This document shows, piece by piece, positions 4,773-59,751 of a stretch of 64,000 nucleotides of DNA (within the stretch, counting starts at the first letter, position 1; each line of letters starts with the position of its first letter). The stretch covers positions 186,001-250,000 of the forward strand of contig NZ_KB889741.1 of NCBI RefSeq assembly GCF_000372745.1, written 5' to 3'. The notes under the pieces were generated by a model. That model worked only from the letters and a program-made list of their open reading frames with translations, was not told where the DNA came from and ran no database searches. The stretch is from Embleya scabrispora DSM 41855 (lineage in GTDB: Bacteria; Actinomycetota; Actinomycetes; Streptomycetales; Streptomycetaceae). Position numbers and translations under genes: made by a program.

Positions 4773-5923
4773 TGTTCGTTCCGGAGACGATGCGGGTTCA
4801 GGAGGACGCGATCGCGGTGCGCGACGCGTTGGCGACAGCGCGGGTGGGCCTGGTCGATCGCGAGGTGGTCGCCGAAGTGGTGACGTTGTGTGCGGTCGCG
4901 GGTGAGCATCTGCTCGTGATCGGGGCTCCCGGCACGGCCAAGTCGTTGGCGGTGCGGCGGATCGCCGAGCAACTCGGTGGCCGCTACTTCGAGTACATGT
5001 TGGGCCGATTCACCGAACCGAACGAGATCTTCGGTCCGGTCGATCTGCGTCGCCTGCGCGAGGGGGTCGTCGAGATCCGGACGGCCGGGATGTTGCCGGA
5101 GGCGGAAATCGCCTTCCTGGACGAGGTCTTCCTCGGCTCCACCGCGATCCTGAATACCCTGCTCGGCCTGCTCAACGAGCGGATCTTCCGGCGCGGTGCC
5201 ACCGTGTCCGCGGCGCCGCTGCGGGTGTGCGTGGGAGCGGCGAACCACGTTCCGCAGGACCCCTCACTCGCGGCCTTCGCCGACCGCTTCCTGGCCCGGG
5301 TGTTCGTCGAGCCGGTCGCCGACGCACGGTTGGAGGAACTGCTGGAGGAGGGTGACACGTTCTCGACCCCCGGGCTTGTGTCTCCGGTTTCGCCGCATGC
5401 GCTGTCCGGCATCGATCGCCTCTCCGAAGCTGCGCAATCATGCCGGCTTGCCTCGGTGCGACCCGTGCTGGCCACCGCGGTGCGCCGGATGCGGGCGGCC
5501 GGGGTGCCGATCACCGACCGTCGGGCGGTGCGCTCGCAACGCTTGGTGGCCGCGGCCGCCGTCTTGGACGGGCGTCTGGCAGCGGAACCGGGCGACCTGT
5601 GGACACTGCCGCTGATCGCATCGACGCCGGACGCGCAGGCGGCCGCGCGCGACGTGTTGGCCGACCTGATCGGCGCGGCAGGCAGCGGCAGCCTGTGCCA
5701 CGCCGCCGAGGAGTACTCACACGGCAGCGCGGCGCGGGCGCGCCGACTCGCGGAGAACGGACGGGACCTGCTCGCCCGCTTCGGGTCGGGTCCGACCGAC
5801 GGCGACCGGCGGTTGCGGCTGGAGGCGGTGCTGCGCGAGATCGACGCCGGCTTCGCGGCAACCGACCTCGGCGCCGAACTGGCCGCTGTCCGCGACCGCC
5901 TGGTCGCGGCCGTGCAGTCGTGA
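4772..5923 (+). CDS. MoxR-family AAA+ ATPase of a bpX ternary system
   Basis: The 383-residue product is a MoxR/RavA-type AAA+ ATPase. Walker A is GAPGTAKS (residues 51-58), Walker B is IAFLDEVF with the catalytic Asp-Glu at about 116-117, and the sensor-1 region reads VCVGAANHVPQDP. A helical lid follows (residues about 190-330), within the family's usual length. MoxR proteins act as chaperone-like unfoldases that remodel partner proteins through vWA adaptors. It heads four overlapping genes whose other members are bpX5-like, vWA/beta-propeller and bpX6-like, the layout of MoxR-vWA-beta-propeller ternary systems inferred to be NTP-driven conflict systems. Confidence 0.88.
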   Translation: MFVPETMRVQEDAIAVRDALATARVGLVDREVVAEVVTLCAVAGEHLLVIGAPGTAKSLAVRRIAEQLGGRYFEYMLGRFTEPNEIFGPVDLRRLREGVVEIRTAGMLPEAEIAFLDEVFLGSTAILNTLLGLLNERIFRRGATVSAAPLRVCVGAANHVPQDPSLAAFADRFLARVFVEPVADARLEELLEEGDTFSTPGLVSPVSPHALSGIDRLSEAAQSCRLASVRPVLATAVRRMRAAGVPITDRRAVRSQRLVAAAAVLDGRLAAEPGDLWTLPLIASTPDAQAAARDVLADLIGAAGSGSLCHAAEEYSHGSAARARRLAENGRDLLARFGSGPTDGDRRLRLEAVLREIDAGFAATDLGAELAAVRDRLVAAVQS

Positions 5924-6639
5924 CGAGCGGCGTCGAACGGACTCGGCCCGGAATGGGCGAGCCGGGTGGGCCGGGGTCGGTCGAGCCGATCCGGTCGGCG
6001 ACGGTCGGTCGGGGCGGGCAATGGAGGGACGGGCGGGCCGAGTCCGGGAGCGGTGGGCAGAGCGGAGTCGGGAGGGTTGAGCGAGGCGGCCAAGGCCGGG
6101 ACGAGAGTTCTCCGCTCGGAGGGCGCGAGGCTTCCGGGGCCGACGCGGAGGACGAGCCCATCGTGGTCGGCCCCGCCGTGCCCGTTTGGCATCCTCGCGA
6201 GTCTCCGCTCCCGGTGGCCGCCGTACTGGCCCGGGGAGCGGCCGTGGCGGGCCTCGCCGCGCGAATCGTCGAGCGATCGGATGGTGGAGATCCGCTCCGA
6301 GCCGCAGGTGATCACGCGTGGTTGGTGGTCATGGGGGAGAACCTCCCGTGGCTGGACGCGGTGACCTACCTCGGTTGGGACGGCGAGGCGCTGACGCCCA
6401 CCACGATGCGGCCCGAGCCTTCGGCGGAGCTTTGGCGCGCGGCTATCGGCCCCGATGACCTCGTGGTGTTGCTGCCGGAGCGGATCCTGACGGCGCCGAT
6501 GCCGGTGGGCCCGGCGGATCGCGAGCGGCTGGCGGCCCTGGCGACTCCTCCGACTCCGGTGGTTTCGAAGGTTCTCGTGGCTTCTCCGCCTCCCCCGGCG
6601 TGGGAGGCCAGGACGGCGACGCCCGGTGACGACGCATGA
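5920..6639 (+). CDS. bpX5-like component of the MoxR-vWA-beta-propeller system
   Basis: The protein has 239 residues. The first 75 or so are low-complexity Gly/Arg/Ser-rich. The conserved part starts near VWHPRESPLPVAAVLARG (about residue 90) and continues through WLDAVTYLGWDGEALTPTT. This pattern, between a MoxR gene and a vWA gene, fits what is catalogued as the bpX5 domain; the assignment rests on position and pattern memory, not a search. The GTG at 5920 overlaps the MoxR stop, and its own stop overlaps the next ATG. No enzymatic motif is visible, so it is probably an adaptor or sensor subunit. Confidence 0.6.
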   Translation: MTSGVERTRPGMGEPGGPGSVEPIRSATVGRGGQWRDGRAESGSGGQSGVGRVERGGQGRDESSPLGGREASGADAEDEPIVVGPAVPVWHPRESPLPVAAVLARGAAVAGLAARIVERSDGGDPLRAAGDHAWLVVMGENLPWLDAVTYLGWDGEALTPTTMRPEPSAELWRAAIGPDDLVVLLPERILTAPMPVGPADRERLAALATPPTPVVSKVLVASPPPPAWEARTATPGDDA

Positions 6640-8303
6640 GGCTGCCCGACGGGCTGGCGTCCTGGGCCGAACCGCTGGACGCGCTGACTCCACGACTCGC
6701 CACCGCCCTGGGTCCGATGGTTCGGCGACTGGACGCGCTGTTGGCGGTGGCGGATCCCGGCCCCGCGCCGGCAGGGGAGTTCGCGGGCTACGGCGGGATC
6801 GCCCGGCGCGGGCATCCGGAGCGCTTGCTCGCCTCCGAGTGGCTGTATGCCCAGGAGTTGGGCACCGAATTCCTGCGCCGCGCGGCCGACGGTGAACTGC
6901 TGTACCTGGACCACGATTTCGTTGATCCGATACCGACCGGACGCGTGCTCGTGCTCGTGGACGCGGGCCCGCTCCAGGCCGGAGCCCCGCGCCTGGTCCA
7001 CCTCGCGTGCCTGATCGTGCTGGCCCGCAAGGCGCAGGCGCGTGGCACACAACTGGTGGTCGACGTGATCGGGACGGATCCGCACGTCCGGCTCACCGGT
7101 GATCTGCGTCGAGTACTGCGCTCCTGGTTGAACTTCCGCCTCGATCAGGTGCCGACCCGCGCGCAAGTCGCCGCACACCTGGCCGCGGCGGACGACGCCG
7201 ACGAGGTGTGGATCCTGGGTACGGACGGTGCGGGCGGTCGGGTGGTCACCGCGCGTGAGACCGGGTGGACGGCCGCGGGCGCCTCGCGCGTCGAGGTGTC
7301 CATCGCCGACACGACGGTGGAACTCCCGCTGCCGGCCCCCGAGATGGCGATCGCCGCCCTGCGCGGCCGGGAGTTCGCGGTGATCGAGTCGACCGCCGCC
7401 GGCGGTACGGCGCCGGTCGGCCCGCTGCGGTTGCCCGCGTTCACCGGGCGACCGCGACAACTGCTGATGCGGGGAGAGGGGCCGGGCCACCTGCTCTCGC
7501 TCTACATCCCCACCGAGGGGCGACCACCGGCCCGACCCACCCGGCACACGTTCCGCGGCACGGCGTACGCGGCGTCCTGGGTCCGGCGCCGCCTGATCGT
7601 ACTTACGCTCACGCGGGGGGAGTTCGCGGTGCACGTCATCGGCCGCCCGGCGCCGGAGCTGGTCGGCATCGGTGGGCCCGTCGACGGATTCGGCCCGGAG
7701 GCGATCGCGCTGTCGGACGACGCCCCGATTCGGCCGATCCATCACGTGGCGGACGCGCTGATCTGCCGGATCGGCGAAGCGTGGTGGCGGTTGCGTGCGG
7801 ACGAGCCGCCGGTACGGATCGACCTGGCGTCGATCGTGCCGGGTGTCGGCAGGGAGTCGAACGAACCACTGCTGACCATCCCCGCGGGCGGGCGAAACCT
7901 CCGGTTCACCGGATGGCCCCAGCCGATCACGGCAGTCGGCGTCACCGATCACGTGCTGGGTGGCGGCGCGTTCGCATGGCGCGCCGAGGACCCGACCGCG
8001 TGGCGAATTCGCATCGCACCGAAAGTTCCCGAGCAGTGCCTGCACCTGCCGGCCGACGTACGGGCGATCGGCTTGGTCGTCGAGGACGGCCGGGCCGCGC
8101 TGATCAGCACCTCGGCGCACGATTCGCTGGTACGCACGCACACCCCCGACGGGGATCGGGTGCTGCGCGCCTGGTCGGACGCACCGGACCCGGTGACGGT
8201 GCATCCGACGTTGCCGTTGATCGCCGGACGGGACCGAGAGGGTCGCATTCGGGTCGGCCACGCGGTGACCGGCGCGCTTTTGGCGACCCTGGCGACGGCG
8301 TGA
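6636..8303 (+). CDS. vWA-type protein with C-terminal beta-propeller-like region
   Basis: The 555-residue product starts with the conserved lead-in of MoxR-partner vWA proteins (GYGGIARRGHPERLLASEWLYAQEL at about 50-74; FLRRAADGELLYL). A Rossmann/vWA-like domain follows (VLVLVDAGPLQAG near residues 105-117, then VDVIGTD and VWILGTDG). The classical MIDAS DxSxS is not intact (DAGPLQAG), so metal binding may be lost or altered. The second half (about 230-555) is a run of short beta-rich repeats consistent with a propeller. It overlaps its neighbours by ATGA on both sides, so it is expressed with MoxR as the probable adaptor. Confidence 0.65.
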   Translation: MRLPDGLASWAEPLDALTPRLATALGPMVRRLDALLAVADPGPAPAGEFAGYGGIARRGHPERLLASEWLYAQELGTEFLRRAADGELLYLDHDFVDPIPTGRVLVLVDAGPLQAGAPRLVHLACLIVLARKAQARGTQLVVDVIGTDPHVRLTGDLRRVLRSWLNFRLDQVPTRAQVAAHLAAADDADEVWILGTDGAGGRVVTARETGWTAAGASRVEVSIADTTVELPLPAPEMAIAALRGREFAVIESTAAGGTAPVGPLRLPAFTGRPRQLLMRGEGPGHLLSLYIPTEGRPPARPTRHTFRGTAYAASWVRRRLIVLTLTRGEFAVHVIGRPAPELVGIGGPVDGFGPEAIALSDDAPIRPIHHVADALICRIGEAWWRLRADEPPVRIDLASIVPGVGRESNEPLLTIPAGGRNLRFTGWPQPITAVGVTDHVLGGGAFAWRAEDPTAWRIRIAPKVPEQCLHLPADVRAIGLVVEDGRAALISTSAHDSLVRTHTPDGDRVLRAWSDAPDPVTVHPTLPLIAGRDREGRIRVGHAVTGALLATLATA

Positions 8304-47746: not shown

Positions 47747-47805
47747 GGTGATTCGGGATCGTCTCGGCATCGGCCGGACGGGGGTCGGTGGGGGAGCGCT
47801 GTCGG

Positions 47806-48597
47806 ATGGGTGTGGAGGTGGACTTTCGGCGGTGGTTGGCAAATTTCGAGGCGGAGGCGTTGCGGCGGGCCGGGGAGCAGGATCCGGCCTGGGAGATGGG
47901 CGCCCGTCTCGACCCGGTGCTGATCGAGACCCTTCGGCGGTTCCAGTTCAGCGAGGACACCGACAATCGGCTGCTGATCGCGAAGACCGTCGCGGCGGGC
48001 GACCCCGAATACGCCGCTGCCATCGTGCTGTTCGCTGCGGAGGAGGCCAATCACGGCCGGCTGCTCGACCATCTGTTGGCCGCGGCCGGGTCGGGGCGGA
48101 TCACGGGTCATTGGGCGGACGCGACGTTTCGTCGGCTGCGTCCGGCCTTCGGCCTGCGCCTGGAGATGATGTTGATCCTGGCCTCGGAGATCGTCGTGCT
48201 CCCCTTCTACGCGGCGATCGCCGACGGTGTCGACGACCCGCTGACCGCCGAGGTGGCTGCCCGGATCCTGGCCGATGAACAGCGCCATGTCCCGTTCCAC
48301 TGCGACTGGTTGCGTGGTTGCCTGGCGGCGTCCCCGCCCGCGTTCCGGGCGGCCGCGGTGGTCGGCTGGTGGTTCCTGGCCGCCGGGGCGACGGCCATGG
48401 TGGTGAGCGACCACGGCCGGACGCTCACCCACCTGCGGACCACCCGCGGCCGCTACGCCCGGGACGTCTTCGCGCACTCCCGCGCGGCGATGGCGCAGGT
48501 CCGGGCGGCCGATCCGGGTACCGCCGCCCTTGCCGGACATCCGCGCCGCCGCCTGCCGACCCGACCGCCGGTGGATCGCCGTCCGCCGGGGGTGTAG
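47806..48597 (+). CDS. Ferritin-like four-helix-bundle protein
   Basis: The 263-residue all-helical protein has two ExxH-type metal motifs, AAEEANHGRLL (about residue 80) and ADEQRHVPFH (about 154). This is the arrangement of ferritin-like diiron or dinuclear-metal proteins. The C-terminus is basic and Pro-rich. The ATG at 47806 follows GGGGGAG; GTG 47788 is an alternative. Substrate or role is unknown. It is the last gene before the cobalamin-regulated region and has no visible link to it. Confidence 0.55.
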   Translation: MGVEVDFRRWLANFEAEALRRAGEQDPAWEMGARLDPVLIETLRRFQFSEDTDNRLLIAKTVAAGDPEYAAAIVLFAAEEANHGRLLDHLLAAAGSGRITGHWADATFRRLRPAFGLRLEMMLILASEIVVLPFYAAIADGVDDPLTAEVAARILADEQRHVPFHCDWLRGCLAASPPAFRAAAVVGWWFLAAGATAMVVSDHGRTLTHLRTTRGRYARDVFAHSRAAMAQVRAADPGTAALAGHPRRRLPTRPPVDRRPPGV

Positions 48598-48788: not shown

Positions 48789-48818
48789 TTGTCCGCGGGG
48801 TGCGCTCTCTCGTACGCT
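48789..48818 (+). promoter_or_regulatory. Promoter upstream of riboswitch 1
   Basis: The pair TTGTCC (48789-48794) and TACGCT (48813-48818) is separated by 18 nt. The same hexamers with the same spacing occur ahead of riboswitch 2 (51443-51472), within otherwise diverged flanking sequence, which supports a functional promoter. Confidence 0.65.
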
Positions 48819-48884
48819 CCGGACGCCGACGCGGTTCGTCGGCGCGCGGCGATCCCGCTCGGATCGTCGTGCGACAACCGAATG

Positions 48885-49032
48885 TTCGAAGCCCAGGGGA
48901 AGCCGGTCGAATTCCGGCGCTGTCCCGCAACCGTGGGTGGTGACCGACAGGTCGCCACGAGTCGGAATGCCTGGGTTCATTCGATCCCGAAGGCTCCAGC
49001 TGTCGTGGACTGCACGCTGAAGCCCGGATTCC
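48885..49032 (+). ncRNA. Cobalamin riboswitch 1
   Basis: The leader shows the cobalamin aptamer signature in order: AGGGGAAGCCGGT, then TCCGGCGCTGTCCCGCAACCG, then a variable arm and the B12-box-like CACGAGTCGGAATGCCTG near 48955-48972. A conserved 3' block at 48989-49032 follows. It is nearly identical to riboswitch 2. It should repress the downstream DUF4430 gene when adenosylcobalamin is plentiful. Confidence 0.9.
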
Positions 49033-49119
49033 GCGGCCGACGCCTGTCTTCGGCCGGACGCCGGGACTCTCCGTTCCCGCCGTCCGCGCCCGCGTCCATC
49101 GCACGAAGGGAATCCGTCC

Positions 49120-49650
49120 GTGAAGAACTTTCGGAACAAGGGACGAATCGGCCGACTGATCGGCGTACTGGCCCTGTTGGTACTGCCCGCCACCGCGCAG
49201 GTCACGGTGTCGGCGCCGAGCGCGTACGCCGTGGACACCACCAAGGGCAGCGCCGGCGTGTGCCCGACCAACGACGGGGTGACCGTGGTCGTCGACTTCC
49301 AGGAACTCGGCGGCGCCACCCTGGTGCGCTGTGCGCCGGGTGATCAGGCCACCGGCCTCGCCGCGCTGAAGAACGCCGGTTTCCAGATAGCCGGCACCGC
49401 CCGCTGGGGTGAGGCGTTCATCTGCCGGATCGAGAACAAGCCCGGCCCGGACACCGAGCCGTGCCTGAACACACCTCCGGCCAACGCCTATTGGTCCTAC
49501 TGGCACGCGCCGAACAGCGGTACCTGGACGTACAGCTCGTGGGGTGCGTCCAACCGCAAGCCCCCGCTGGGCAGCTTCGAGGGTTGGTCCTTCTCCAAGG
49601 ACAAGACCGCTTCGACCAACCCGCCGCCGCGCGTGACACCTTCGCGTTAG
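49120..49650 (+). CDS. Secreted DUF4430-type protein (transcobalamin beta-domain-like), unanchored
   Basis: The 176-residue precursor has a signal peptide (about 1-39, hydrophobic LIGVLALLVLPATAQ). A domain follows with GVTVVVDFQELGG, TGLAALKNAGF, ARWGEAFICRI, four Cys, AYWSYWHAPNSGTWTYSSWG and GSFEGWSF. This fits DUF4430, the fold that forms the C-terminal beta domain of animal transcobalamin and intrinsic factor. There is no cell-wall anchor, so the protein is free in the medium or envelope. GTG 49120 follows GAAGGGA. Its cobalamin riboswitch and the neighbouring alpha-barrel gene imply corrinoid binding; that function is inferred. Confidence 0.8.
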   Translation: MKNFRNKGRIGRLIGVLALLVLPATAQVTVSAPSAYAVDTTKGSAGVCPTNDGVTVVVDFQELGGATLVRCAPGDQATGLAALKNAGFQIAGTARWGEAFICRIENKPGPDTEPCLNTPPANAYWSYWHAPNSGTWTYSSWGASNRKPPLGSFEGWSFSKDKTASTNPPPRVTPSR

Positions 49651-49700
49651 CTCGGCCGAACCTCGCTCCATGTGGGGTTGTTCAGCCTGCTTGGCAAGGC

Positions 49701-49742
49701 CCCGCGTCGTCGGTCGCCCGGATCGGCGACCGACGACGCGGG
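49701..49742. terminator. Bidirectional terminator between convergent DUF4430 and alpha-barrel genes
   Basis: A perfect 18-bp inverted repeat (49701-49718 with 49725-49742, arms CCCGCGTCGTCGGTCGCC and its complement) with a 6-nt loop. It lies 50 bp from one stop and 16 bp from the other, so it can serve both genes. Confidence 0.85.
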
Positions 49743-49757
49743 TGGTCCGGATCCGGG

Positions 49758-50852
49758 TCAGGACGCGGACGACGGGCAGTGCAGGGTCGGTACGCCGGGC
49801 AGGGCGCCCGCGGCCGTCAGGTCGGCGAAGCCGGTGCCGGCCAGACCCAGTACGGCCTGGGCGGTGGCCCGCGTCGCGGTGGACGGGTCGAACCCGGTGG
49901 CGTCGTACGCGATCGCCCCTCGCGTGGCGGGCGTGGCCGTGCAGCCCACCTGTCGCTGGGTGAGGAAGTGCCGCGCGGTCAGCCCGGGCAACACCCGCCA
50001 CGAGGACAGCAGGGCCTGCCCGGCCAGGCCGGTGCTGTTGGCGTTGGACGTGGTGGCGCCCGACGTGCCGAAGCCGCCATCGGAAAGCTGGTGCGCCGCG
50101 AGCCAGTTGAGCCCGGCGGTGGCCTCCTGATGGCGACCGGTGGCGGCCAGCGCCTGCACGCTCATCGCGGTCGAGTCCGCGTCGCTGGTGCAGGTCGCGA
50201 GGCCGAAGTTCAGCGGGAACCCGCCGTCGGCACAGTGTGCGCCGGCCAGGAAGTCGACCGCGGCGGACGGTGCGCCGGAGGCGGTGCGGTCCAGCGCCAG
50301 CAGCGCGAGCGACTGGCTGAACGCGTTGCTGTAGTCGCCCCACGGGGAGGTGTCGGTGAACCGGCCCGAGGGTTGTTGCAACGAGCGCAGCCGGGTCGGG
50401 AGGTCGACGCCGCCGAAGTTGCTCGGATTCACGCCGCGCACCTCGGCCGCGAGCAGCGCCTTGGCGGTGGCCCCGGCATAGGAGTTGGCAGTGCCGTCGC
50501 CGATGTAGCCGGACAGGATCTCCGGGCGGGCCAGCCAGGTGGTGGCCTTGGCCCCGTTGACGTCGGCCACCCCGGCGGCGGCGAATGCCAGGATCGCGTC
50601 GATGGTCAGGCCCTGGTCGGGGTAGGTCACCCCGTCGAAGGTCGTCTCGAAGCGCTCTCCGTCGACGAGTTGCCGGGCCAGCCATCCGGCGGCGGCGCGG
50701 GTGCGATTGTCGGCCGGGATCGAAGCGGCCGCGGACCGGTCGACGGGTGCCGGGGCGGCGCTCGCGGTCGCGGGTACGACGGCGGTCGCGGTGGCGAGGA
50801 GCAGTCCGCCGAACAGAGCGGAGATCTTCCGGCCGGGTCGGGTGAGCGTCAT
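49758..50852 (-). CDS. Secreted prenyltransferase/squalene-oxidase-repeat alpha-barrel protein, unanchored
   Basis: The 364-residue precursor has a signal peptide (about 1-33). The rest is made of helical repeats typical of alpha/alpha barrels: AAGWLARQLVDGERF, GLTIDAILAFAAAG, YAGATAKALLAAE, AFSQSLALLALDR, HCADGGFPLN, DADSTAMSVQALAA and NANSTGLAGQALLSSW. This is the fold of the N-terminal domain of intrinsic factor and transcobalamin. The catalytic DxDD of terpene cyclases is absent, arguing against enzyme function. It ends shortly after the repeats with no LAXTG anchor. ATG 50852 follows GGAAAGG. It is controlled by cobalamin riboswitch 3, so corrinoid binding is inferred. Confidence 0.82.
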   Translation of the reverse strand: MTLTRPGRKISALFGGLLLATATAVVPATASAAPAPVDRSAAASIPADNRTRAAAGWLARQLVDGERFETTFDGVTYPDQGLTIDAILAFAAAGVADVNGAKATTWLARPEILSGYIGDGTANSYAGATAKALLAAEVRGVNPSNFGGVDLPTRLRSLQQPSGRFTDTSPWGDYSNAFSQSLALLALDRTASGAPSAAVDFLAGAHCADGGFPLNFGLATCTSDADSTAMSVQALAATGRHQEATAGLNWLAAHQLSDGGFGTSGATTSNANSTGLAGQALLSSWRVLPGLTARHFLTQRQVGCTATPATRGAIAYDATGFDPSTATRATAQAVLGLAGTGFADLTAAGALPGVPTLHCPSSAS

Positions 50853-50998
50853 GACGAAGCCTTTCCGGGCCTGCGAAGCGGCATGCCCGGCGAATTCGCC
50901 ACGCGTTCGACCGTGACCCGGGAGCGGGACGGTCTCGGCCCGGCGGCGCGAGGGCTCCGCCCCGTAGACCACGACGGGGAATGGAGGTGGAACGCTCC

Positions 50999-51092
50999 GG
51001 CCCCAGGCATTCGGGCTCGCCGTCGCACGGACGTGGACGGACCACCGCTGCGGGTCAGCGCCGGAATCACACCGGACTTTCCCTGCGGCCGA
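50999..51092 (-). ncRNA. Cobalamin riboswitch 3 (reverse strand)
   Basis: On the reverse strand the leader reads GCAGGGAAAGTCCGGTG, TTCCGGCGCTGACCCGCAGCGG, then after a variable arm CGAGCCCGAATGCCTGGGG. This is the same ordered set of cobalamin aptamer blocks as the two plus-strand copies, but clearly diverged from them. It lies about 150 nt upstream of the alpha-barrel start. Confidence 0.85.
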
Positions 51093-51192
51093 AGTCGACT
51101 CGGTTCGCCGCGCCCCGGAACCGGCCGGACACGGTGGTGCCCGGGAGTGGACACCGCCGTCGCACCGAAGATCCTCGGGCGAGACGCTGCGC

Positions 51193-51222
51193 ACTCTACG
51201 GACAGTTCGCCGCCGAGGGTAA
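51193..51222 (-). promoter_or_regulatory. Promoter upstream of riboswitch 3
   Basis: On the reverse strand TTACCC (51222-51217) and a consensus-like -10 TAGAGT (51198-51193) are 18 nt apart, the same spacing as the two plus-strand riboswitch promoters. Confidence 0.5.
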
Positions 51223-51442
51223 CTCGCTTTCCGGCCAGGGGGCTCGGCGACCCTCGCCCCGATCACCGTCCGGACAGCCGGAGTTCGGGCCGGAGCCGAA
51301 GTCGATCCCGCAGTTCGAGCCGAGGCCGGGCCCGGAACGGGAGCCTTCCCGGAGTCCGTGCAACGGCTGGAAACCGCCCCCGGATCGGGGCCGACATCGT
51401 CGGATGGTGACGAACGGCATGGTGCCGCGCACGCGCGAACGG

Positions 51443-51472
51443 TTGTCCGCGAGGCGGTATCTCTCGTACGCT
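51443..51472 (+). promoter_or_regulatory. Promoter upstream of riboswitch 2 and the anchored-protein/ECF operon
   Basis: TTGTCC (51443-51448), 18-nt spacer, TACGCT (51467-51472); identical hexamers and spacing to the promoter at 48789-48818. Confidence 0.65.
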
Positions 51473-51512
51473 CCGCACGCCGGTGCATGTCGTCGGCACC
51501 TCAACTCCATAG

Positions 51513-51660
51513 TTCGAAGCCCAGGGGAAGCCGGTCGAATTCCGGCGCTGTCCCGCAACCGTGGGTGGTGACCGACAGGTCGCCACGAGTCGGAATGCCT
51601 GGGTTCGTACGATTTTGAAGGCTCCAGCTGTCGTGGACTGCACGCTGAAGCCCGGATTCC
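51513..51660 (+). ncRNA. Cobalamin riboswitch 2
   Basis: This is the same cobalamin aptamer as riboswitch 1. By eye the 94-nt block 51513-51606 matches 48885-48978, and the 44-nt block 51617-51660 matches 48989-49032, with only a 10-nt spacer differing. It precedes five co-oriented genes for capture and ECF uptake, so cobalamin should switch off the whole operon. Confidence 0.92.
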
Positions 51661-51690
51661 ACCGCTGGCGCTCTCTGTGTCGGTCGGACA

Positions 51691-51716
51691 CCGGGACTCG
51701 TGTAGTCCCGGAAGGA
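51691..51716 (+). promoter_or_regulatory. Ribosome-binding-site-sequestering hairpin (riboswitch 2 expression platform)
   Basis: CCGGGACT (51691-51698) pairs perfectly with AGTCCCGG (51704-51711) across a CGTGT loop. The 3' arm runs into the Shine-Dalgarno sequence GGAAGGA (51710-51716) of the gene at 51723. This suggests translational control by the riboswitch. Confidence 0.6.
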
Positions 51717-51722
51717 TCCCCG

Positions 51723-53204
51723 ATGTTCCGGTTCACCGTCGCACCCACCTGCGCCGTCGCGGTCTGCGGCGCGGTGCTCGTCGCCGTCGCCCCCGTCCTG
51801 CCGGCCTCGGCCGACGCAGCGAACCCGTATGCCGCGGCGGGCGCCGCGGCGGCCGAGTGGCAGGCCGGGGAACTGGTCGCCGGCGGCATACCCGGTTTCG
51901 CGGGCCCCGACTGGGGCCTCACCATCGACACGATGATGGCGCTGGCCGCCACTCGCTCGCAGCCGACCGCGCTCGGCGCCGCGGCGGACGCGGTGGCGGC
52001 GAACGTGCGCAAGTACACCAGCGCCGAGGAGTGGGGCTTGCCCGGCTCGCGGATCGCCGGCGCGACCGCGAAGGTGCTGTTCGCCGCGGTGGTCGCGGAT
52101 CGCGATCCGACCGGATTCGGCGGCCTCGACATGCGCGCGGAGACGCTCGACCTGATCGCCGGGGCCGACGCGGGCGACGACGCGGGTCGCATCCGGGACA
52201 AGCTCACCGGCAGTCCCGACTCCGGCAACGCGTTCGGCCAATCGCTGGCCGTGCTGGGCCTGGCTCGCAGCGGCGGAGTGCCGCAGAGCGCGGTGGACTT
52301 CCTGATCAAGCAACAGTGTCCGAGCGGCGGATTCCGCTTGTACCCGGGCCAGTTGGGCAGCACCGGCGCAACCTGCCAGGACACGCCCACGACCGTGCTC
52401 GACCCGGACTCGACCGGTATGGCGGTGCAGGCCCTGCTCGCCGCCGCGACCGAGAGCAAATCGGTGGGCGCCGCCGCCGCGGCCCGGAAGGGCGCGGACT
52501 GGCTCAAGTCCAAGCAGCGCGCGGATGGTTCGTTCGGTGGCTCGGGTCCCACGGTGGCCTCGAACACCAACAGCACGGGCCTGGCCGGACAGGCCCTGCA
52601 CGCGGCCGGCTACCCGGCCGAGTCGGACCGGGCCGCCGCGTGGGTGCTGGAGCACCAGATCACCAAGGACAACGCGGGCGCCGCCGACCGGGAGATCGGC
52701 ACGATCGCCTACAACGCGGAGGCCCTCACCTCGGCCCGGGCCGAGGGCATCCCGGAGTTTCAGCGCGACCAGTGGCGCCGGGCAACGCCGCAGGCGCTGC
52801 TCGTGCTCGCCGACGTCCCGCTCGGCGACCTGGGCAAGGCCCCGACCGGACCCACGGGCACCGCCACCACGTCGGCCACGGCCACGGCCACGACTTCGCC
52901 GACCGCCACGCGCACGGCCTCGCCCACCACCTCCACCAGCACCTCCGCGGCGAGTTCGGCCACGAACTCGCCGAGCGCCACCACGTCGGCCGGCCGCACC
53001 GCGAGCGCCTCGGCGAGTTCGACCATCACCACGCCCGGCTCGGTGTCGGGCGGGAACACCGGCGCCGGGTCCGGCTCCGGCGGCGGCCGACTGGCCCGGA
53101 CCGGCGCGCAGGTCGGCGGTCTGACCCTGCTCGCGATCGGCCTGGTCGGTACGGGCCTTGCGGTGCGCGCGGGCGCCCGCCGCAGGAACGGGGATCACGC
53201 GTGA
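51723..53204 (+). CDS. Cell-wall-anchored prenyltransferase/squalene-oxidase-repeat alpha-barrel protein (LAXTG)
   Basis: The 493-residue precursor has a signal peptide (about 1-30). Alpha/alpha-barrel repeats follow (about 35-375: GLTIDTMMALAATR, AGATAKVLFAAVV, AFGQSLAVLGLAR, CPSGGFRLYP, DPDSTGMAVQALLAA, NTNSTGLAGQALHAAG). A Ser/Thr-rich spacer (about 380-450) leads to a sortase signal with LARTG, a hydrophobic span and an Arg-rich tail. LAXTG is the class E sortase motif of actinomycetes, so the protein is probably linked to peptidoglycan. It is paralogous to the unanchored protein at 49758-50852. First gene of the riboswitch 2 operon; proposed alpha subunit of a corrinoid-binding pair. Confidence 0.85.
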   Translation: MFRFTVAPTCAVAVCGAVLVAVAPVLPASADAANPYAAAGAAAAEWQAGELVAGGIPGFAGPDWGLTIDTMMALAATRSQPTALGAAADAVAANVRKYTSAEEWGLPGSRIAGATAKVLFAAVVADRDPTGFGGLDMRAETLDLIAGADAGDDAGRIRDKLTGSPDSGNAFGQSLAVLGLARSGGVPQSAVDFLIKQQCPSGGFRLYPGQLGSTGATCQDTPTTVLDPDSTGMAVQALLAAATESKSVGAAAAARKGADWLKSKQRADGSFGGSGPTVASNTNSTGLAGQALHAAGYPAESDRAAAWVLEHQITKDNAGAADREIGTIAYNAEALTSARAEGIPEFQRDQWRRATPQALLVLADVPLGDLGKAPTGPTGTATTSATATATTSPTATRTASPTTSTSTSAASSATNSPSATTSAGRTASASASSTITTPGSVSGGNTGAGSGSGGGRLARTGAQVGGLTLLAIGLVGTGLAVRAGARRRNGDHA

Positions 53205-54226
53205 TGATCGCCGCGCACCGTGCCCGGATCGCCCGCCTGGCCGCCGCGTTGGCGATCCTGGTGTTGCCCGCGACCGCGCAACTCACCGTCACCGCACCGG
53301 CCGCACGCGCGGTCGACACCGGCAAGGGCACGCCCGGGTTCTGCCCGGACGGCAACGGCGTGACCGTGATCGTCGACTTCCAGGAACTCGGTGGCACCAC
53401 CATCGTGCGCTGCGCACCGGGCGAACAGGCCACCGGGTTGGCGGCGTTGAAGAACGCCGGCATGCAAATCACCGGTGTCGCCCGCTGGGGGGAGGCGTTC
53501 ATCTGCCGGGTCGAGGGCAAGCCGGGCGCCAACTCCGAGCCGTGCATCGACACGCCGCCGGCCTCCGCCTACTGGTCGTACTGGCATGCCCTCAACGGCG
53601 GTTCGTGGACCTACAGCCAGTGGGGCGTGCTGAACCGCAAGCCCCCGATCGGCAGTTTCGAGGGCTGGTCCTTCTCCAAGGACAAGACCGAGACCTCCAA
53701 CCCGCCGCCCCGGGTGGCCCCGACCCGCCCCACGCCCAAGCCCACCCCGAACGCGCCCGAGTCGGAGCGCCCCAAGCCCGAACAGCCCAAGCCCGAACAG
53801 CCCGGTCCGGAACAGCCGAAGCCGCAACCGCCGGGGTCCGATCCGGCCGGCAACCCGCCGCCCGCCGGCGGCACCGACACACCGGACACCACCGGCAGCC
53901 GGTCCGTCGACCCGCTCGCCCCGGGCCCCGGGGTGGCGGGCAACCCGATGGAAGCCGAACCACCACCCGCCGCCCCGCCGGTCGTGGATCCGTCCACGAC
54001 CGCGACCGGCACCCAACCAGGGGCCGGCCCACCCGCTGCCGGTCAACCCTCCGGGACCACCCCGGCCGGGGCCACCTGGACCGGTGGCGAGGAACTCGCC
54101 CGTACCGGCGAGGACTCCGGCATCCCGATCACCACCCTGATCGGCATCGCCCTGCTCGCCGCGCTGTGCGCGGGTGCCGCCTTCACCGTCGTGCGACGTC
54201 GGCGCGCGACGAGCGCGGTGCGTTGA
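53204..54226 (+). CDS. Cell-wall-anchored DUF4430-type protein (LAXTG)
   Basis: The 340-residue precursor has a signal peptide (about 1-36) and a DUF4430-type domain (about 40-160) closely matching the protein at 49120 (DFQELGG, TGLAALKNAGM, ARWGEAFICRVEG, AYWSYWHALNGGSWTYSQWG, GSFEGWSFSKDKT). A long Pro-rich spacer (PKPEQPKPEQPGPEQ type, about 165-295) leads to LARTG, a hydrophobic span and an RRRR tail. The ATG overlaps the stop of the upstream anchored barrel protein (TGATG), so the two are made together and probably act as one binding unit at the wall. Proposed beta subunit. Confidence 0.85.
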   Translation: MIAAHRARIARLAAALAILVLPATAQLTVTAPAARAVDTGKGTPGFCPDGNGVTVIVDFQELGGTTIVRCAPGEQATGLAALKNAGMQITGVARWGEAFICRVEGKPGANSEPCIDTPPASAYWSYWHALNGGSWTYSQWGVLNRKPPIGSFEGWSFSKDKTETSNPPPRVAPTRPTPKPTPNAPESERPKPEQPKPEQPGPEQPKPQPPGSDPAGNPPPAGGTDTPDTTGSRSVDPLAPGPGVAGNPMEAEPPPAAPPVVDPSTTATGTQPGAGPPAAGQPSGTTPAGATWTGGEELARTGEDSGIPITTLIGIALLAALCAGAAFTVVRRRRATSAVR

Positions 54227-54249
54227 ACCGGCCCGCAGGCCCGGGACGG

Positions 54250-55458
54250 GTGACGGTGGCCGCGCGTTTCGCCGCGGGCCGCCTGCCGCGCACCGTGCAT
54301 CCCGGCGCGTGGTGGCTCTGGGCGCTCGGTCTGGCCACCGCGGCCAGTCGGACCACCAATCCGCTGCTGCTCGCGCTGATCCTGGCCGTCGCCGGTTACG
54401 TGGTCGCCAACCGGCGCAGCGATGCCCCGTGGGCCCTGGCGTTCCGGATGTACCTGTTCCTGGGCCTGTTCATCATCATGATGCGGGTGTTGTTCCGGAT
54501 CCTGTTCGGCGCCGGCGCGGCGAGCGGCCACGTCCTCCTCGATCTGCCCGAACTCCCGCTGCCCGCCTGGGCGGCGGGCATCCACCTGTTCGGCCCGGTG
54601 GTCCTGGAGCACGTGCTCGGCGGGTTCTACGACGGGCTGCGCCTGGCCACCATGATCGTCTGCCTGGGCGCGGCCAACGCACTCGCCAGTCCCAAGCGCA
54701 TGCTCAAGGCGGTGCCGGCGGCGCTGTACGAGGTGGGCGCGGCCGTGGTGGTCGCGCTCTCGGTGGCACCGCAGTTGGTGGAGAGCGTGCAGCGGGTGCG
54801 CAGGGCCCGCCGGCTGCGCGGCGGTGCCCAGCGCGGCATGCGAGCGCTGCGCTCGATCGCCATCCCGGTGCTCCAGGACGCGCTGGATCGTTCGCTCGCG
54901 CTGGCCGCCGCGATGGACTCGCGCGGCTACGGCCGCAACCGGCACCTGCCCCGATCGATCCGGCTGCTCACCGGCATGCTGACCCTGGTGGGCCTGATCG
55001 GCGTGTGCGTGGGGGTGTACGCACTGCTCGACGGCAGCGCCCCACGCTATCTGGGCGCGACGATGCTGCCCGGCGGAATCGTGATCGCGGGCATCGGCTT
55101 CGTGCTGACCGGCCGGCGGATCGACCGCAGTGTCTACCTGCCGGACCGCTGGCGGAGCGCCGAGTTCGCGGTGGCCGGGTGCGGGGTCGGCGCCGGCGCG
55201 CTGGTCCACCTCACCAGCCGGATCGACGCCGGCAACCTCTATCCGTCGCTGAGCCCGTTGGCCTGGCCGGAGTTGGCCCCGCTCCCGGTGCTCGCGCTGG
55301 TCGTCGGCGTGCTGCCCGCGTGGCTGGCCCCGCCGCCTTTGCCGGATACACCCCGCTTCGGCGCGACCGCGCCCGTACCCGTTCCATCCGTCCAGCCCGG
55401 CCCGGCTCCCCGCCCGGCCGCGACCGGCTCTGCCGGCAAGGAGAGATCCGTCCGGTGA
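54250..55458 (+). CDS. ecfT: ECF transporter T component (EcfT/CbiQ family)
   Basis: The 402-residue integral membrane protein has about seven spans. It carries the EcfT coupling-helix motif AMDSRGYGR (about 232-240) plus an earlier RRARRLRG helix, which contact the ATPases. Family members are usually about 250-280 residues; this one has extra C-terminal spans and a Pro-rich tail. The start is ambiguous: GTG 54250 has a GGGACGGG lead, while a TTG at 54223 overlaps the upstream stop. EcfT transmits ATPase movement to the substrate-binding S component. Third gene of the riboswitch 2 operon. Confidence 0.88.
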   Translation: MTVAARFAAGRLPRTVHPGAWWLWALGLATAASRTTNPLLLALILAVAGYVVANRRSDAPWALAFRMYLFLGLFIIMMRVLFRILFGAGAASGHVLLDLPELPLPAWAAGIHLFGPVVLEHVLGGFYDGLRLATMIVCLGAANALASPKRMLKAVPAALYEVGAAVVVALSVAPQLVESVQRVRRARRLRGGAQRGMRALRSIAIPVLQDALDRSLALAAAMDSRGYGRNRHLPRSIRLLTGMLTLVGLIGVCVGVYALLDGSAPRYLGATMLPGGIVIAGIGFVLTGRRIDRSVYLPDRWRSAEFAVAGCGVGAGALVHLTSRIDAGNLYPSLSPLAWPELAPLPVLALVVGVLPAWLAPPPLPDTPRFGATAPVPVPSVQPGPAPRPAATGSAGKERSVR

Positions 55459-57254
55459 TCCGGTTCCGCGACGTCACCATCACCTACGCCGATGCGCGCG
55501 CACCGGCCCTGCGCAACGTCGAACTCACGATCCCCGAAGGTGAGTTGTGTCTGGTCGTCGGTCGCACCGGAGCGGGCAAGTCGACCCTGCTCGGCGCGAT
55601 CAACGGCCTGGTCCCGCACTTCACCGGCGGCACCCTGCGCGGGAGCGTGCTCGTGGACGGCGTGGACACCCGTACCCAGCCGCCGCGCGAGTTCGCACAC
55701 CTGGTCGGGGTGGTCGGTCAGGACCCGCTCGCGGGTTTCGTCACCGATACCGTCGAGGAGGAACTCGCTTACGGAATGGAGCAGTTGGCCATCCCGTCGA
55801 CGGTGATGCGCAAGCGCGTGGAGGAGACTCTCGACCTGCTCGGCATCGCCGAACTGCGGCACCGGCCGCTGCGCACCCTCTCCGGCGGCCAACAACAGCG
55901 GGTCGCGATCGGCTCGGTGCTGACCGCGCATCCGCGCGTCCTGGTGCTGGACGAACCCACCTCCGCTCTCGATCCGACCGCCGCCGAGGACGTGTTGGCC
56001 GCCATCACCCGGCTCGTGCACGACCTCGGTATCACCGCGATCGTCGCCGAGCACCGCATGGAACGCGTGGTGCAGTACGCCGACCGGCTGGTGCACCTGC
56101 CGGGTGATCACACCGTCCGCGACGGCCCGCCCGCCGAGATCCTGGCCACGTGCGACATCGCGCCGCCGGTCGTCGAACTCGGCCGACTGGCGGGCTGGTC
56201 GCCGCTGCCGCTCTCGGTCCGCGACGCCCGGCGCCTGGCACCACCGCTGCGCGAGCGTCTGGCCGACCGTACGCCGCCCGAGGCGCGGGCCGCCGTCCGA
56301 GCGGCCGGACCGCTCCTGAGCGCGCGGCGGATCATCGTCCGCTACGGCGACGTGATCGCGGTACGCGGCCTGGACCTGGACCTGTTCCCCGGCCGGGTCA
56401 CCGCGCTGATGGGCCGCAACGGGTCCGGCAAGTCCTCGCTCCTGTGGGCCCTCCAGGGTTCGGGGCCGCGCCAGGGCGGCACCGTGGACGTGGCCGGCGA
56501 GGACCCGGGCAAGGCCGCGCCGCATCGTGCGCGCGGTCTGGTCGGCCTGGTCCCACAAAGCTCCGGCGACCTGTTGTACCTGGAGACCGTGGATGCGGAA
56601 TGTGCCCAGGCGGACCGGGAATCCGAGGTCGAGCAGGGCTCGTGTCGCGCCCTCCTGAACCGGATCGCGCCCGGCATCGACGGCGCGCTGCACCCGCGTG
56701 ACGTCTCCGAAGGGCAGCGGCTGGCGCTGGTGCTGGCGATCCAACTCGTCGCCGCACCACGGGTGGTGCTGCTGGACGAGCCCACCTGCGGACTCGATTA
56801 CCACGCCAAGCGGCGGTTCGTTCGGGTCGTGCGCGAACTGGCGGACGCGGGCGGCACGGTGGTCCTGGCCACACACGACGTCGAATTCGTCGCGCAGGTC
56901 GCCGATCGGGTCGTGGTGATGGCCGAGGGCGACATCGTGGCCGACGGCCCGACCCCGGACGTGGTGGTGTCCTCACCCGCGTTCGCACCGCAGGTGGCCA
57001 AGATCCTGGCCCCGCTCCCGTGGCTGACCGTCGCCGACGTGGCGGCGGCACTGGACCCCGGCCCCGAGCCTGGCCGCCGCCCCGAGCCCGGCACCGGTCC
57101 AGGCCCAAGTCCAAGCTCAGGTGCCGGTCCAAGTCCCGGCTCAGGTACCGGTCCAAGCCCCGGTCTGGACCCGCAAGCCGACCCCGACCCCACCCCGCAA
57201 GCCGGCCCGCTCCCTGCCCCGACCCACCCCCGCGAGCAGGAGGCGACCCGATGA
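55455..57254 (+). CDS. ecfA: ECF transporter ATPase, two fused nucleotide-binding domains (EcfA-EcfA')
   Basis: The 599-residue product carries both ECF ATPase domains in one chain. NBD1 has Walker A GRTGAGKS (36-43), LSGGQQQR (about 142) and LVLDEPTSALD. NBD2 has Walker A GRNGSGKS (about 320), a divergent signature VSEGQ (about 417) and VVLLDEPTCGLD. A 70-residue Pro/Gly/Ser-rich tail follows, unusual for a cytosolic ATPase. GTG 55455 overlaps the EcfT stop, and its own stop overlaps the S-component ATG. It powers the uptake inferred for this operon. Confidence 0.93.
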   Translation: MIRFRDVTITYADARAPALRNVELTIPEGELCLVVGRTGAGKSTLLGAINGLVPHFTGGTLRGSVLVDGVDTRTQPPREFAHLVGVVGQDPLAGFVTDTVEEELAYGMEQLAIPSTVMRKRVEETLDLLGIAELRHRPLRTLSGGQQQRVAIGSVLTAHPRVLVLDEPTSALDPTAAEDVLAAITRLVHDLGITAIVAEHRMERVVQYADRLVHLPGDHTVRDGPPAEILATCDIAPPVVELGRLAGWSPLPLSVRDARRLAPPLRERLADRTPPEARAAVRAAGPLLSARRIIVRYGDVIAVRGLDLDLFPGRVTALMGRNGSGKSSLLWALQGSGPRQGGTVDVAGEDPGKAAPHRARGLVGLVPQSSGDLLYLETVDAECAQADRESEVEQGSCRALLNRIAPGIDGALHPRDVSEGQRLALVLAIQLVAAPRVVLLDEPTCGLDYHAKRRFVRVVRELADAGGTVVLATHDVEFVAQVADRVVVMAEGDIVADGPTPDVVVSSPAFAPQVAKILAPLPWLTVADVAAALDPGPEPGRRPEPGTGPGPSPSSGAGPSPGSGTGPSPGLDPQADPDPTPQAGPLPAPTHPREQEATR

Positions 57255-58165
57255 GCCCCCCGGCCCCGAGCACGCGTCACACCAGCGCGATCCGGATCAC
57301 CCCGCGCACCGCGCTCGTGCTCACCATCGCCTCGATCGCCGGACTGGCGATGTTCCTGTGGCCGCTGTTCGCCTCGCCGTCGCCCGAATCCGCCGCGCAC
57401 TCCGGGGACGCGCCGCTGATCTTCGCGGTCACCCTGCCGTTCGTGGTCGCGGTGGTACTGGCCGAAATGACCAGCGGCGGGCTGGACTCGAAGGCGCTGG
57501 CCATGCTCGGCGTCCTGTCCGCGATCAACGCCGCGCTGCGCCCACTGGGCGCCGGTACGGCGGGGATCGAGACGGTCTTCTTCATGCTCGTGCTCGCCGG
57601 TCGGGTGTTCGGCCCCGGCTTCGGCTTCGTGCTCGGCTGTACGTCACTGTTCGCCTCGGCCCTGCTGACCGCCGGGGTCGGGCCCTGGCTGCCGTTCCAG
57701 ATGCTCGCCTCGGCCTGGGTGGGGCTGGGTGCCGGCCTGCTGCCCAAGCGGGTGCGCGGCCGTCGCGAGATCGTTATGCTGGCCTGCTACGGCGTGTTCT
57801 CCGCCTACGCCTTCGGCTTCCTGCTCAACATGTGGTTCTGGCCGTTCCTGGCCGACGCACCGGGCATGGTCGGTCCGGCGTTCGTACCCGGCGACGCGGT
57901 CCTGGACAACCTGCACCGGTTCTTCGTCTTCACCGTGCTCACCTCCACCTTCGGCTGGGACACCGGACGCGCGATCACCAACTGCGTCGCCATCGTGCTC
58001 GTGGGCCCGGCGGTGCTGGCCGCGCTGCGCAGAGCCGCCCGCAAGGCGGCCTTCGAGGCACCGATCGTCTTCGAGCCCGTCGAGCGCGTCGAGCCCGTCG
58101 GCCCGCCGCAACCGGCAACGGCGACCGAGACCGAGACCGAGACCGCGCATCAGCCCTGTGCCTAG
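57251..58165 (+). CDS. ECF transporter substrate-binding S component
   Basis: The 304-residue membrane protein has six or so spans (about 25-265). Family-like features include an N-terminal short-side-chain helix, VLSAINAALRPLGAG (residues about 89-103) and FGFVLGCTSLFASALL. It belongs to the S-component type found directly downstream of fused ECF ATPases in actinobacteria. Known cobalamin S components (BtuM, CbrT) are not obviously similar by eye. The cobalamin specificity is inferred from the riboswitch and the neighbouring binding proteins. The acidic, Thr/Glu-rich tail overlaps the convergent next gene by 4 bp. Confidence 0.85.
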   Translation: MSPPAPSTRHTSAIRITPRTALVLTIASIAGLAMFLWPLFASPSPESAAHSGDAPLIFAVTLPFVVAVVLAEMTSGGLDSKALAMLGVLSAINAALRPLGAGTAGIETVFFMLVLAGRVFGPGFGFVLGCTSLFASALLTAGVGPWLPFQMLASAWVGLGAGLLPKRVRGRREIVMLACYGVFSAYAFGFLLNMWFWPFLADAPGMVGPAFVPGDAVLDNLHRFFVFTVLTSTFGWDTGRAITNCVAIVLVGPAVLAALRRAARKAAFEAPIVFEPVERVEPVGPPQPATATETETETAHQPCA

Positions 58166-59355
58166 ACCACGGACCCCCGCACGCTCAAGGCCCCACCACG
58201 GCCGGACCCGTGGCGCCGGCCGACCGGTACACCGGCCGCCGCCCCCGTGCCACCCCCACCGCCCGCGCCGAAGGCACCGGCCCCCGCACCCCCGGCCGCC
58301 GCGATCCGCCGGCGCAGCACCGCCGCCTCGCGCGCATACCGCCGCACCGGGAACTCGTCGGTGTCGGCCACCGCACCCAGGATCCGTACCGCGGCGGCGG
58401 TCGCCTTGACCGCGGCCTCCACCGCGGCCGACTCGGCCACCGACGCCTGGCGCGTGTACGAGATGCCCGCGTCGCGGCGCCGGGCCGCGTCCAGGTAGAT
58501 CGCCCGGGCGGAGTCGACCGCTGCCGCAGCCTCCGCCGGCAGGTGCCGATCGGCCCCGGTCACGAACGCGCCCGCGACGTCCAGCGCGGCCTGGGCCAGC
58601 CCGGTCGCGCACGCCGCGCCGCCCAACCGGCCCGCGTCCAACAGGTCGAACGCGATCCGCAGACCCCGACCCGGCGCCCCGATCAGCCGCTCGGGTTCCA
58701 GGTACACCCCGTCCCAATAGGCGGTGGTGGTCGGGATGGCGCGCAACGCGGTCGCCTCCTCGGGAGCGGCGAAGTAGAGGTACTCGTCGGCGCCGGGGGC
58801 CAGGAAGCAGGAAACGTCCGGTCGGGCCGGACCGGTGCGGGCGAACACGGTGTGGAAGTGCGCCCGGCCCCCGTGCGCGAGGGCGAACTGGGTGCCCTGG
58901 AGCAGGTGCCCGGCGCGGGTGCGCTCGGCCCGGCAGGTGACCGCCGAGGGATCGGCTCCGACATGCGGTTCGGACCGGCTGCCGCCGCCGGTCAGCGCGC
59001 CGTCGAGCATGCCGGGCAGCCACTGCTCGCGTTGCGCGTCGGTGCCGTGCGCCGCGGTCGGCAGGCAGGCCAGTGTGTGCGTGTCCACGGCGCCGGCCAC
59101 CGCCGCCCAGCGCGCGGCGAGTTCTTCCACCACCTGGAGGTAGACCTCGTAGGGCTGGCCGCCGCCCCCGTACCGCACCGGGTAGGGCAGGCCGGACAGG
59201 CCCGCCCGGCCCAGAGCGGTGAACAAACCGGTGGGGTAGCTCGCGTCGGCCTCACACCCGGCGACCCGGGACGCGAGTTCGCGGTCCGCGAACGCCCGGG
59301 TTCGGGCGATCAGGTCGTGGGCTTCGTCGGTGGGGAGCAGACGGTCGACGGGCAC
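58162..59355 (-). CDS. Acyl-CoA dehydrogenase-like flavoprotein
   Basis: The 397-residue product has the acyl-CoA dehydrogenase layout: N-terminal helices, GLSGLPYPVRYGGGG, AHGTDAQREQWLPGML, a central beta domain (AVTCRAERTRAGHLLQG) and a C-terminal helical bundle (ARAIYLDAARRRDAGISYTRQASVAE, VRILGAVA). The usual catalytic Glu region is hard to place, and the Ser/Thr FAD motif reads GGGSRSEPHVGAD, so it may be a divergent member. The C-terminus is Gly/Ala-rich. It starts at GTG 59355 and converges on the ECF operon. No riboswitch precedes it. Confidence 0.75.
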   Translation of the reverse strand: MPVDRLLPTDEAHDLIARTRAFADRELASRVAGCEADASYPTGLFTALGRAGLSGLPYPVRYGGGGQPYEVYLQVVEELAARWAAVAGAVDTHTLACLPTAAHGTDAQREQWLPGMLDGALTGGGSRSEPHVGADPSAVTCRAERTRAGHLLQGTQFALAHGGRAHFHTVFARTGPARPDVSCFLAPGADEYLYFAAPEEATALRAIPTTTAYWDGVYLEPERLIGAPGRGLRIAFDLLDAGRLGGAACATGLAQAALDVAGAFVTGADRHLPAEAAAAVDSARAIYLDAARRRDAGISYTRQASVAESAAVEAAVKATAAAVRILGAVADTDEFPVRRYAREAAVLRRRIAAAGGAGAGAFGAGGGGGTGAAAGVPVGRRHGSGRGGALSVRGSVV

Positions 59356-59751
59356 GGGCGCATCCCTGGGGTGGACGGGCGGGCCGGGAAGGAGGCCCGG
59401 TTCACCTGGTGCCGTGGCCGGGGACGATCCCCGAGCTGGCGGCGCGGACCCGCCGGACCGGGGCCGGGGGATACCAGGACACCTGCGCACGGTAGGTGCA
59501 CAGCCGGTGGCCGGGGATCGTCCGGCGCGACGAAGCCGAGCCGGGTTCTTTGTCGCGGCCCACCTATGGCCTCGCCCGGGCTCCTGCGGGGTACGGATCC
59601 GGCGGTGAGGTGCCGGCACGGCGGTCCCGCGAGCCGGTCGTGGCTTTGGTGCCCGCTGACGGAAAGTGTCGACAGCATTGGTCATTCGGACGAAGAACCC
59701 GGTACGTGGCGCGGCCTAGCGTCGCTCACACACCAACCGGAAGGACGCGAC
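59356..59751. other. Divergent promoter region between acyl-CoA dehydrogenase and M19 dipeptidase genes
   Basis: About 400 bases with no supported gene. A -10-like TAGCGT sits near 59717, about 35 bp before the dipeptidase start; no convincing -35 accompanies it. Confidence 0.4.

Follow-up and report, generated by a model that had tools for sequence, protein, structure and literature searches.

A putative split transcobalamin-like corrinoid capture system beside an energy-coupling factor transporter in Embleya scabrispora

The genes at positions 48,789 to 58,165 of a 64,000-nucleotide stretch of the Embleya scabrispora DSM 41855 genome (contig NZ_KB889741.1, positions 186,001 to 250,000 of the forward strand; hereafter the window) probably encode a corrinoid capture and uptake system, in which a beta-grasp protein and an alpha/alpha barrel serve as the two jaws of a clamp, and the wall-anchored pair of jaws is encoded in one operon with an energy-coupling factor (ECF) transporter. 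In animals, intrinsic factor and transcobalamin hold an alpha6/alpha6 barrel and a beta domain in one chain and clamp vitamin B12 between them. In the window the jaws would be separate polypeptides in two pairs, namely small1 with barrel1, which have no anchor, and barrel2 with small2, which would be attached to the wall through LARTG motifs. We consider the system real, widespread and functionally coherent, and we infer the joint closing of the jaws on a corrinoid, the diffusion of the unanchored pair, the riboswitch response and the hand-over to the transporter from fold, gene fusion, operon structure and what is known of how these families behave.

The unanchored pair consists of small1 (49120-49650, + strand, 176 amino acids), a secreted beta-grasp protein of the transcobalamin beta or DUF4430-like kind, and barrel1 (49758-50852, - strand, 364 amino acids), a secreted alpha/alpha barrel, both with signal peptides recognized by eye. 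The anchored pair lies on the + strand and comprises the alpha/alpha barrel barrel2 (51723-53204, 493 amino acids) and the beta-grasp protein small2 (53204-54226, 340 amino acids, with a long linker), which are followed by a T component of the CbiQ family (54223-55458, its TTG start chosen by overlap), fused A-A' ATPases with two ABC_tran stretches (55455-57254) and an S component (57251-58165), and neighbouring open reading frames from barrel2 to S overlap by one to four bases. The C-termini of barrel2 and small2 carry LARTG (in barrel2 found by eye), a hydrophobic stretch and a charged tail of basic residues, an end that is absent from small1 and barrel1; small2 also reaches the LPXTG_anchor model TIGR01167 with 16.7 bits (cut-off 15.9), and the host genome contains eight sortase matches. 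The ECF set in the window is complete (T, two ATPases and S), with the T component scoring 32.2 bits against CbiQ PF02361 (cut-off 25), the S component 40.3 bits against ECF_trnsprt PF12822 (cut-off 30.7) and A-A' 272 bits against TIGR04520, under the cut-off of 315. Cobalamin riboswitches (RF00174, gathering score 31.5 bits) precede small1 (48897-49032, + strand, 33.5 bits, ending 88 bases before the start codon), the barrel2-small2-T-A-S operon (51525-51660, + strand, 34.6 bits) and barrel1 (51084-51005, - strand, 31.1 bits), the first two scoring above gathering and the last 0.4 bits below it. All the parts listed by the first-pass annotation of this DNA, that is two barrels, two small beta proteins, a T/A-A'/S transporter and three cobalamin riboswitches, were thereby recovered.

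In the proposed mechanism, low intracellular B12 would open all three transcripts through their riboswitches, and a beta protein and a barrel would then bind a corrinoid outside the membrane as two jaws. The anchored pair would hold the ligand at the wall and the unanchored pair may reach further, while the S component would receive the corrinoid and the ECF motor would probably import it across the membrane. An ECF transporter carrying cobalamin has been described in Lactobacillus delbrueckii (ECF-CbrT, PMC5997447); in contrast to the window, the available part of that report mentions neither a barrel nor a beta protein for capture outside the cell. A closely related reading keeps the same clamp and transporter but takes the ligand to be a precursor or breakdown product of a corrinoid, such as cobinamide or other cobamides, rather than complete B12. 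It draws on the window S component being unlike any solved B12 S component by sequence (a phmmer search of the PDB returned only 5d0y, at E 0.12, and no significant match to a solved S component), on the acceptance of cobinamide by CbrT and the human carriers (PMC5997447), and on the response of cobalamin riboswitches to several corrinoids (PMC9600662), the last two as given in the available parts of the sources. However, control by such riboswitches fits any corrinoid and nothing discriminates among them, and we regard this choice of ligand as rather unlikely.

An AF2 model of small1, built from 34 sequences, reached a mean predicted local distance difference test score (pLDDT) of 83 and a predicted template modelling score (pTM) of 0.83, and a Foldseek search of the PDB with this model placed intrinsic factor and transcobalamin chains at ranks 1-16, with modest E-values (0.003 to 0.09, none below 0.001), and 3u7z at rank 17, a Ruminococcus gnavus protein that we take to be a DUF4430 structure. 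The first 15 VIA rows for the same model were haptocorrin (Z 9.2), intrinsic factor (8.6-9.1), 3u7z (9.1) and transcobalamin (8.4-9.1), with 94-97 residues aligned at 2.6-3.1 A, and the best other PDB entry had a Z of 5.7. With regard to a beta-hairpin insert, the model gives the order of elements only, strands 55-58 and 62-69 coming after helix 44-50. The model thus supports a transcobalamin beta-domain fold for small1, and the superposition on transcobalamin domains that the first-pass annotation had anticipated was obtained for this protein, the carrier beta domains being the best matches in the PDB. The label 'DUF4430-type' given there holds at the level of fold (Z 8.4-9.2 for the carriers against 5.7) but not of sequence, as Pfam DUF4430 (PF14478) matched neither the window proteins nor any other protein of the genome.

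The link between this beta domain and cobalamin riboswitches extends well beyond the window. In an even sample of the phylum comprising 396 genomes, the beta-domain profile gave 60 matches in 50 genomes. For 49 of the 60 matches (41 of the 50 genomes), RF00174 was found on the same strand no more than 3 kb upstream, where chance would give roughly 0.08% per match (averages entered by hand). Conversely, 45 of the 94 RF00174 matches entered are neighbours of this kind, the Embleya genome (G000) being entered with its three window copies only. As the association recurs across the phylum, it is not a product of chance. Eleven matches have no such riboswitch. Among them, those of G361, G374, G401 and G281 lie close to a contig end, those of G253 and G265 are each a second match in their genome, and that of G232 is short; G048, G264, G307 and G382 also belong here, and in these four genomes, as in G361 and G401, no cobalamin riboswitch was detected with stricter filters, which lose weak matches. 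Loci that are away from contig ends and whose genome has no such riboswitch are not pairs, because the barrel is missing there. The search for the gene pair beside cobalamin riboswitches in other actinobacteria, which had been suggested from the window alone, therefore returned the expected association, and homologous pairs are not consistently under non-cobalamin regulation, although some fusions (L112, L116) have no adjacent riboswitch at the Rfam threshold. In six of nine hand-picked loci examined at that threshold (L103, L104, L109, L123, L130, L151), a beta or barrel gene is immediately preceded by a riboswitch on its own strand, and the others have one nearby on the opposite strand only (L127), downstream only (L112) or none (L116).

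The gene neighbourhood is similarly conserved. The surroundings were examined for 40 of the 50 beta-positive genomes, and a barrel was detected with a hidden Markov model (HMM) in 31 of these 40 loci; in 30 loci it lies no more than 2.5 kb away on the same strand. T, A and S occur together in 32 loci, and A and S in 35. The expectation of genes under cobalamin riboswitches beside an ECF transporter accordingly holds for the majority of the loci in the phylum sample. A second search, of named genomes, found 267 relatives, and the 80 best of these yielded 71 loci, which were chosen by likeness to a fused beta domain and are therefore biased towards fusions; T, A and S are present in 56 of the 71. 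The split arrangement of the window recurs in Catellatospora (L146, L147) and in a metagenome-assembled genome (L152), and in nine of the 71 loci (L084-L088, L093, L146, L147, L152) the main set is accompanied by a second barrel/beta pair that carries no LPxTG/LAxTG-like motif. In eight of these nine, a riboswitch above gathering lies directly upstream of the barrel of the unanchored pair, and in L093 it is about 1.2 kb away.

Natural fusions of both halves provide strong indirect evidence that they work together. Within the phylum sample, six of the 40 loci (L161, L162, L176, L178, L179, L190) encode a barrel and then a beta domain in a single frame, which is the order found in transcobalamin, and four of the six carry wall domains (CWB2 in three, SLH in one). 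The opposite order, beta then barrel, is found in one frame in 61 of the 71 fusion-biased loci, mostly with two barrels and mostly with an LAxTG end. In a tree of 133 beta domains, which is based on few columns and in which many forks are weak, the two fusion orders are separated (three changes for the beta-barrel order, fusBA, two for the barrel-beta order, fusAB, and five for all labels), and this suggests more than one fusion event. A more elaborate architecture was seen in L021 (8647-12768, - strand): besides a beta domain and a barrel, its single frame of 1373 residues includes LPRTG and, by eye, fibronectin-like and NHL-propeller-like repeats.

It could be argued that the beta protein captures the corrinoid alone and delivers it to the S component, with the barrel serving some other purpose, for example as an enzyme, for docking or as a scaffold in the wall. 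Indeed, six of the 40 loci have a beta gene beside ECF genes and no detected barrel (L154, L156, L158, L193, L159, L170), not counting two loci without a barrel on short contigs (L185, L187). In L154, L156, L158 and L193 the beta gene adjoins an ECF gene in which ATPase and S are fused (L193 also has T), and in L159 and L170 it directly follows a riboswitch; the beta protein of L193 looks by eye like a lipoprotein. However, the first four of these six loci are in genomes where no RF00174 was detected, with no Rfam family above gathering nearby, and the beta scaffold possibly serves another ligand there. The barrel is furthermore present in the 31 loci counted above and, by eye, in L167, and the two halves are fused in both orders in separate parts of the beta tree, all of which makes capture by the beta protein alone improbable. 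L167 itself encodes a very diverged barrel/beta pair, its barrel missed by the HMM, beside a divergent T, A and S set.

The fold of the barrels was judged on a homologous protein, the first barrel of the fusion of Streptomyces sp. LS1784 (L086), and the fusion barrel of another locus (L028) is 33% identical to barrel1. The L086 model matches squalene-hopene cyclases (Z 24.6), intrinsic factor (21.3) and transcobalamin (21.2), and thus supports an alpha/alpha toroid; the barrel partner claimed from the window sequence is in this way seen in a relative, and it fits the animal carrier, but the fold is common to many enzymes and not specific. By sequence, the window barrels match prenyltransferase and squalene cyclase models below cut-off, and the best matches of the barrel profile are squalene-hopene cyclases. 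The DxDD motif is the acid catalytic motif of class II terpene cyclases, and its position reads DADS and DPDS (by eye) in the window barrels. The best matches in sequence and fold could be cited for taking the barrels as class II terpene cyclases or prenyltransferases in a neighbourhood unrelated to B12, but this is hardly credible for proteins that are secreted, wall-anchored, controlled by cobalamin riboswitches, fused in relatives to a transcobalamin-type beta domain and devoid of DxDD; the cyclase identity was rejected on this motif and the B12-type context.

The nearest named relatives of the window pair are the NCBIfam families SCO2321_fam and SCO2322_fam, whose names give no function. 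All matches are below cut-off: the barrels score 127.2 (barrel1) and 67.2 bits against SCO2321_fam (cut-off 300), and the beta proteins 27.8 and 26.6 bits against SCO2322_fam (cut-off 85). By sequence comparison, SCO2321 and SCO2322 are circularly permuted relatives of the window barrel and beta protein. Of the 20 best matches of the SCO2321 model in 41 relatives (15 of them above cut-off), 19 matched the window-type barrel HMM in swapped-order pieces and the twentieth was cut by a contig end; barrel1 likewise matches the SCO2321 model in swapped order. The window-type beta HMM matches all 16 SCO2322 loci, its C-terminal part near the mature start. With hhalign, the YWSYW half of SCO2322 aligned to the window beta domain at E 5e-13 and the other half at E 0.005, with reversed controls reaching 0.04-0.06. 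Because the second half is only weakly supported in this comparison, the permutation of the beta domain rests on a bridging protein of G002, which matches the SCO2322 model in two swapped-order pieces (E 1e-11 and 1e-10). The two permutations need not go together, since L181, L186 and L188 combine permuted barrels with unpermuted beta partners. The SCO2321/SCO2322 pair otherwise resembles the window pair, with homologous barrel and beta proteins followed by T, A and S in the three loci examined (L030-L032), and of 16 SCO2321-type loci, 10 are preceded on the same strand by a cobalamin-family riboswitch, which in seven of them is above its own gathering score. Four loci (L094, L097, L104, L106) have one beta domain followed by three tandem barrels, and barrel repeats of this kind could plausibly be a step on the way to circular permutation. 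The genome of E. scabrispora itself contains a permuted SCO2321-like barrel elsewhere (G000, C128, 54531-55637; L018, L029), with no T, A, S or beta gene detected in the 18 kb examined around it and no cobalamin riboswitch listed for that contig.

Besides the barrel-less loci described above, several results weigh against a two-jawed corrinoid clamp. Transcobalamin was not reached in the PDB by the sequence profiles of the beta domain, of the barrels or of the barrel-beta fusions, and the Pfam model Cobalamin_bind (PF01122) matched none of the window proteins and only three of 54 fusions at E <= 0.01 (L176 scores 16.1 bits, with a cut-off of 25). In the fold search with the L086 barrel, intrinsic factor comes no higher than rank 39, after cyclases and sugar epimerases, and the model of a 764-residue fusion has no reliable packing of the two halves (pTM 0.49, most of the beta part with pLDDT below 50). 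The riboswitch is not always where it would be expected either, as at the gathering threshold it lies directly upstream of the anchored operon on the same strand in six of the nine hand-picked loci and in three (L087, L093, L146) of the nine loci with an unanchored second pair. In addition, the host genome encodes CobN, with a cobalamin riboswitch just upstream of cobN; the host is therefore probably a B12 producer with less need for scavenging.

The two-jawed clamp has a clear precedent. In the available part of their article, Burroughs et al. 2007 (PMC1796856) describe bacterial transcobalamin-like SLBB domains that are joined to alpha/alpha toroids, with one half or the other coming first, in proteins that are secreted or anchored in the Gram-positive manner and are encoded in operons with a CbiO-like ATPase and a CbiQ-like membrane protein, in low-GC Gram-positives, planctomycetes and euryarchaea. 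As these authors predicted B12 scavenging for the toroid-SLBB proteins, whose bacterial bearers usually do not have key B12 synthesis enzymes, the capture system is not new in kind, and the split transcobalamin-like capture proposed in the first-pass annotation is well supported by folds, riboswitches, operons and fusions but not wholly novel. The window shares with those systems the two folds, the secretion or wall anchoring and the CbiO/CbiQ-type neighbours, and differs in being actinobacterial, in its split halves, riboswitches and two pairs, and in a host with cobN. The available text of PMC1796856 contains neither 'riboswitch' nor 'Streptomyces' (word counts 0) and describes no split barrel/beta pair and no permutation. 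What is new is therefore the actinobacterial split pair, the link to riboswitches, the permutations, the varied wall anchors and the second, unanchored pair. Among the matches listed in a literature search of titles and abstract starts, with most subscription journals outside its range, the system was undescribed in actinobacteria; no report of joint corrinoid binding by two polypeptides was found in the parts of the literature examined, and SCO2321 was named in one paper, which by its listed text concerns a cell-penetrating peptide.

Compared with the animal carriers, the window system has the same beta fold (Z 8.4-9.2) and a toroid partner, and relatives such as L176, L178, L179 and L190 place barrel and beta in one chain in that order, whereas it consists of two polypeptides, has no sequence-level match to the carriers and has no endocytic receptor. 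A bolder version, which we put forward tentatively and with somewhat less than even confidence, is that of a two-polypeptide 'corrinophore', in which free barrel1 and small1 would close on a corrinoid and pass it to the anchored pair and the ECF transporter. Its jaws would be modular, lineages having joined them in both orders, multiplied the barrel to two or three copies and permuted each of them, in at least one case the barrel but not the beta protein. If the two-jawed clamp is correct, a bacterial system builds the animal B12 clamp from two chains, and SCO2321 and SCO2322, families without a functional name that adjoin ECF genes in Streptomyces-type genomes, would acquire a role in B12 acquisition. 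The natural fused, split and permuted versions are then material for testing how transcobalamin closes on its ligand, and the idea of a bacterial origin of the animal B12 carriers, raised in 2007 according to the available text, becomes testable in genetically accessible bacteria.

Some features of the window and its relatives are of more local interest. The two + strand leaders (48883-49069 and 51511-51699) are nearly identical over about 150-190 bases in a local alignment, with few changes, and they precede genes of different folds (small1 and barrel2). Because the beta domains of small1 and small2 are 76% identical while the leaders are nearly identical, the leader was probably copied or homogenized later than the genes behind it. 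In L130, a further secreted barrel-like protein (by eye) is encoded at 5921-7519 on the - strand, divergent from the fusion gene and with its own cobalamin riboswitch (7459-7533), and a - strand riboswitch is found at a comparable position in L084-L086, L088 and L127. A tblastn search of plasmid records matched only two Embleya records and added nothing. The system is flanked on one side by a gene for a ferritin-like protein (47788-48597, + strand), with weak DUF455, rubrerythrin and AurF matches, and on the other by an acyl-CoA dehydrogenase gene (58165-59685, - strand) directly after the S component.

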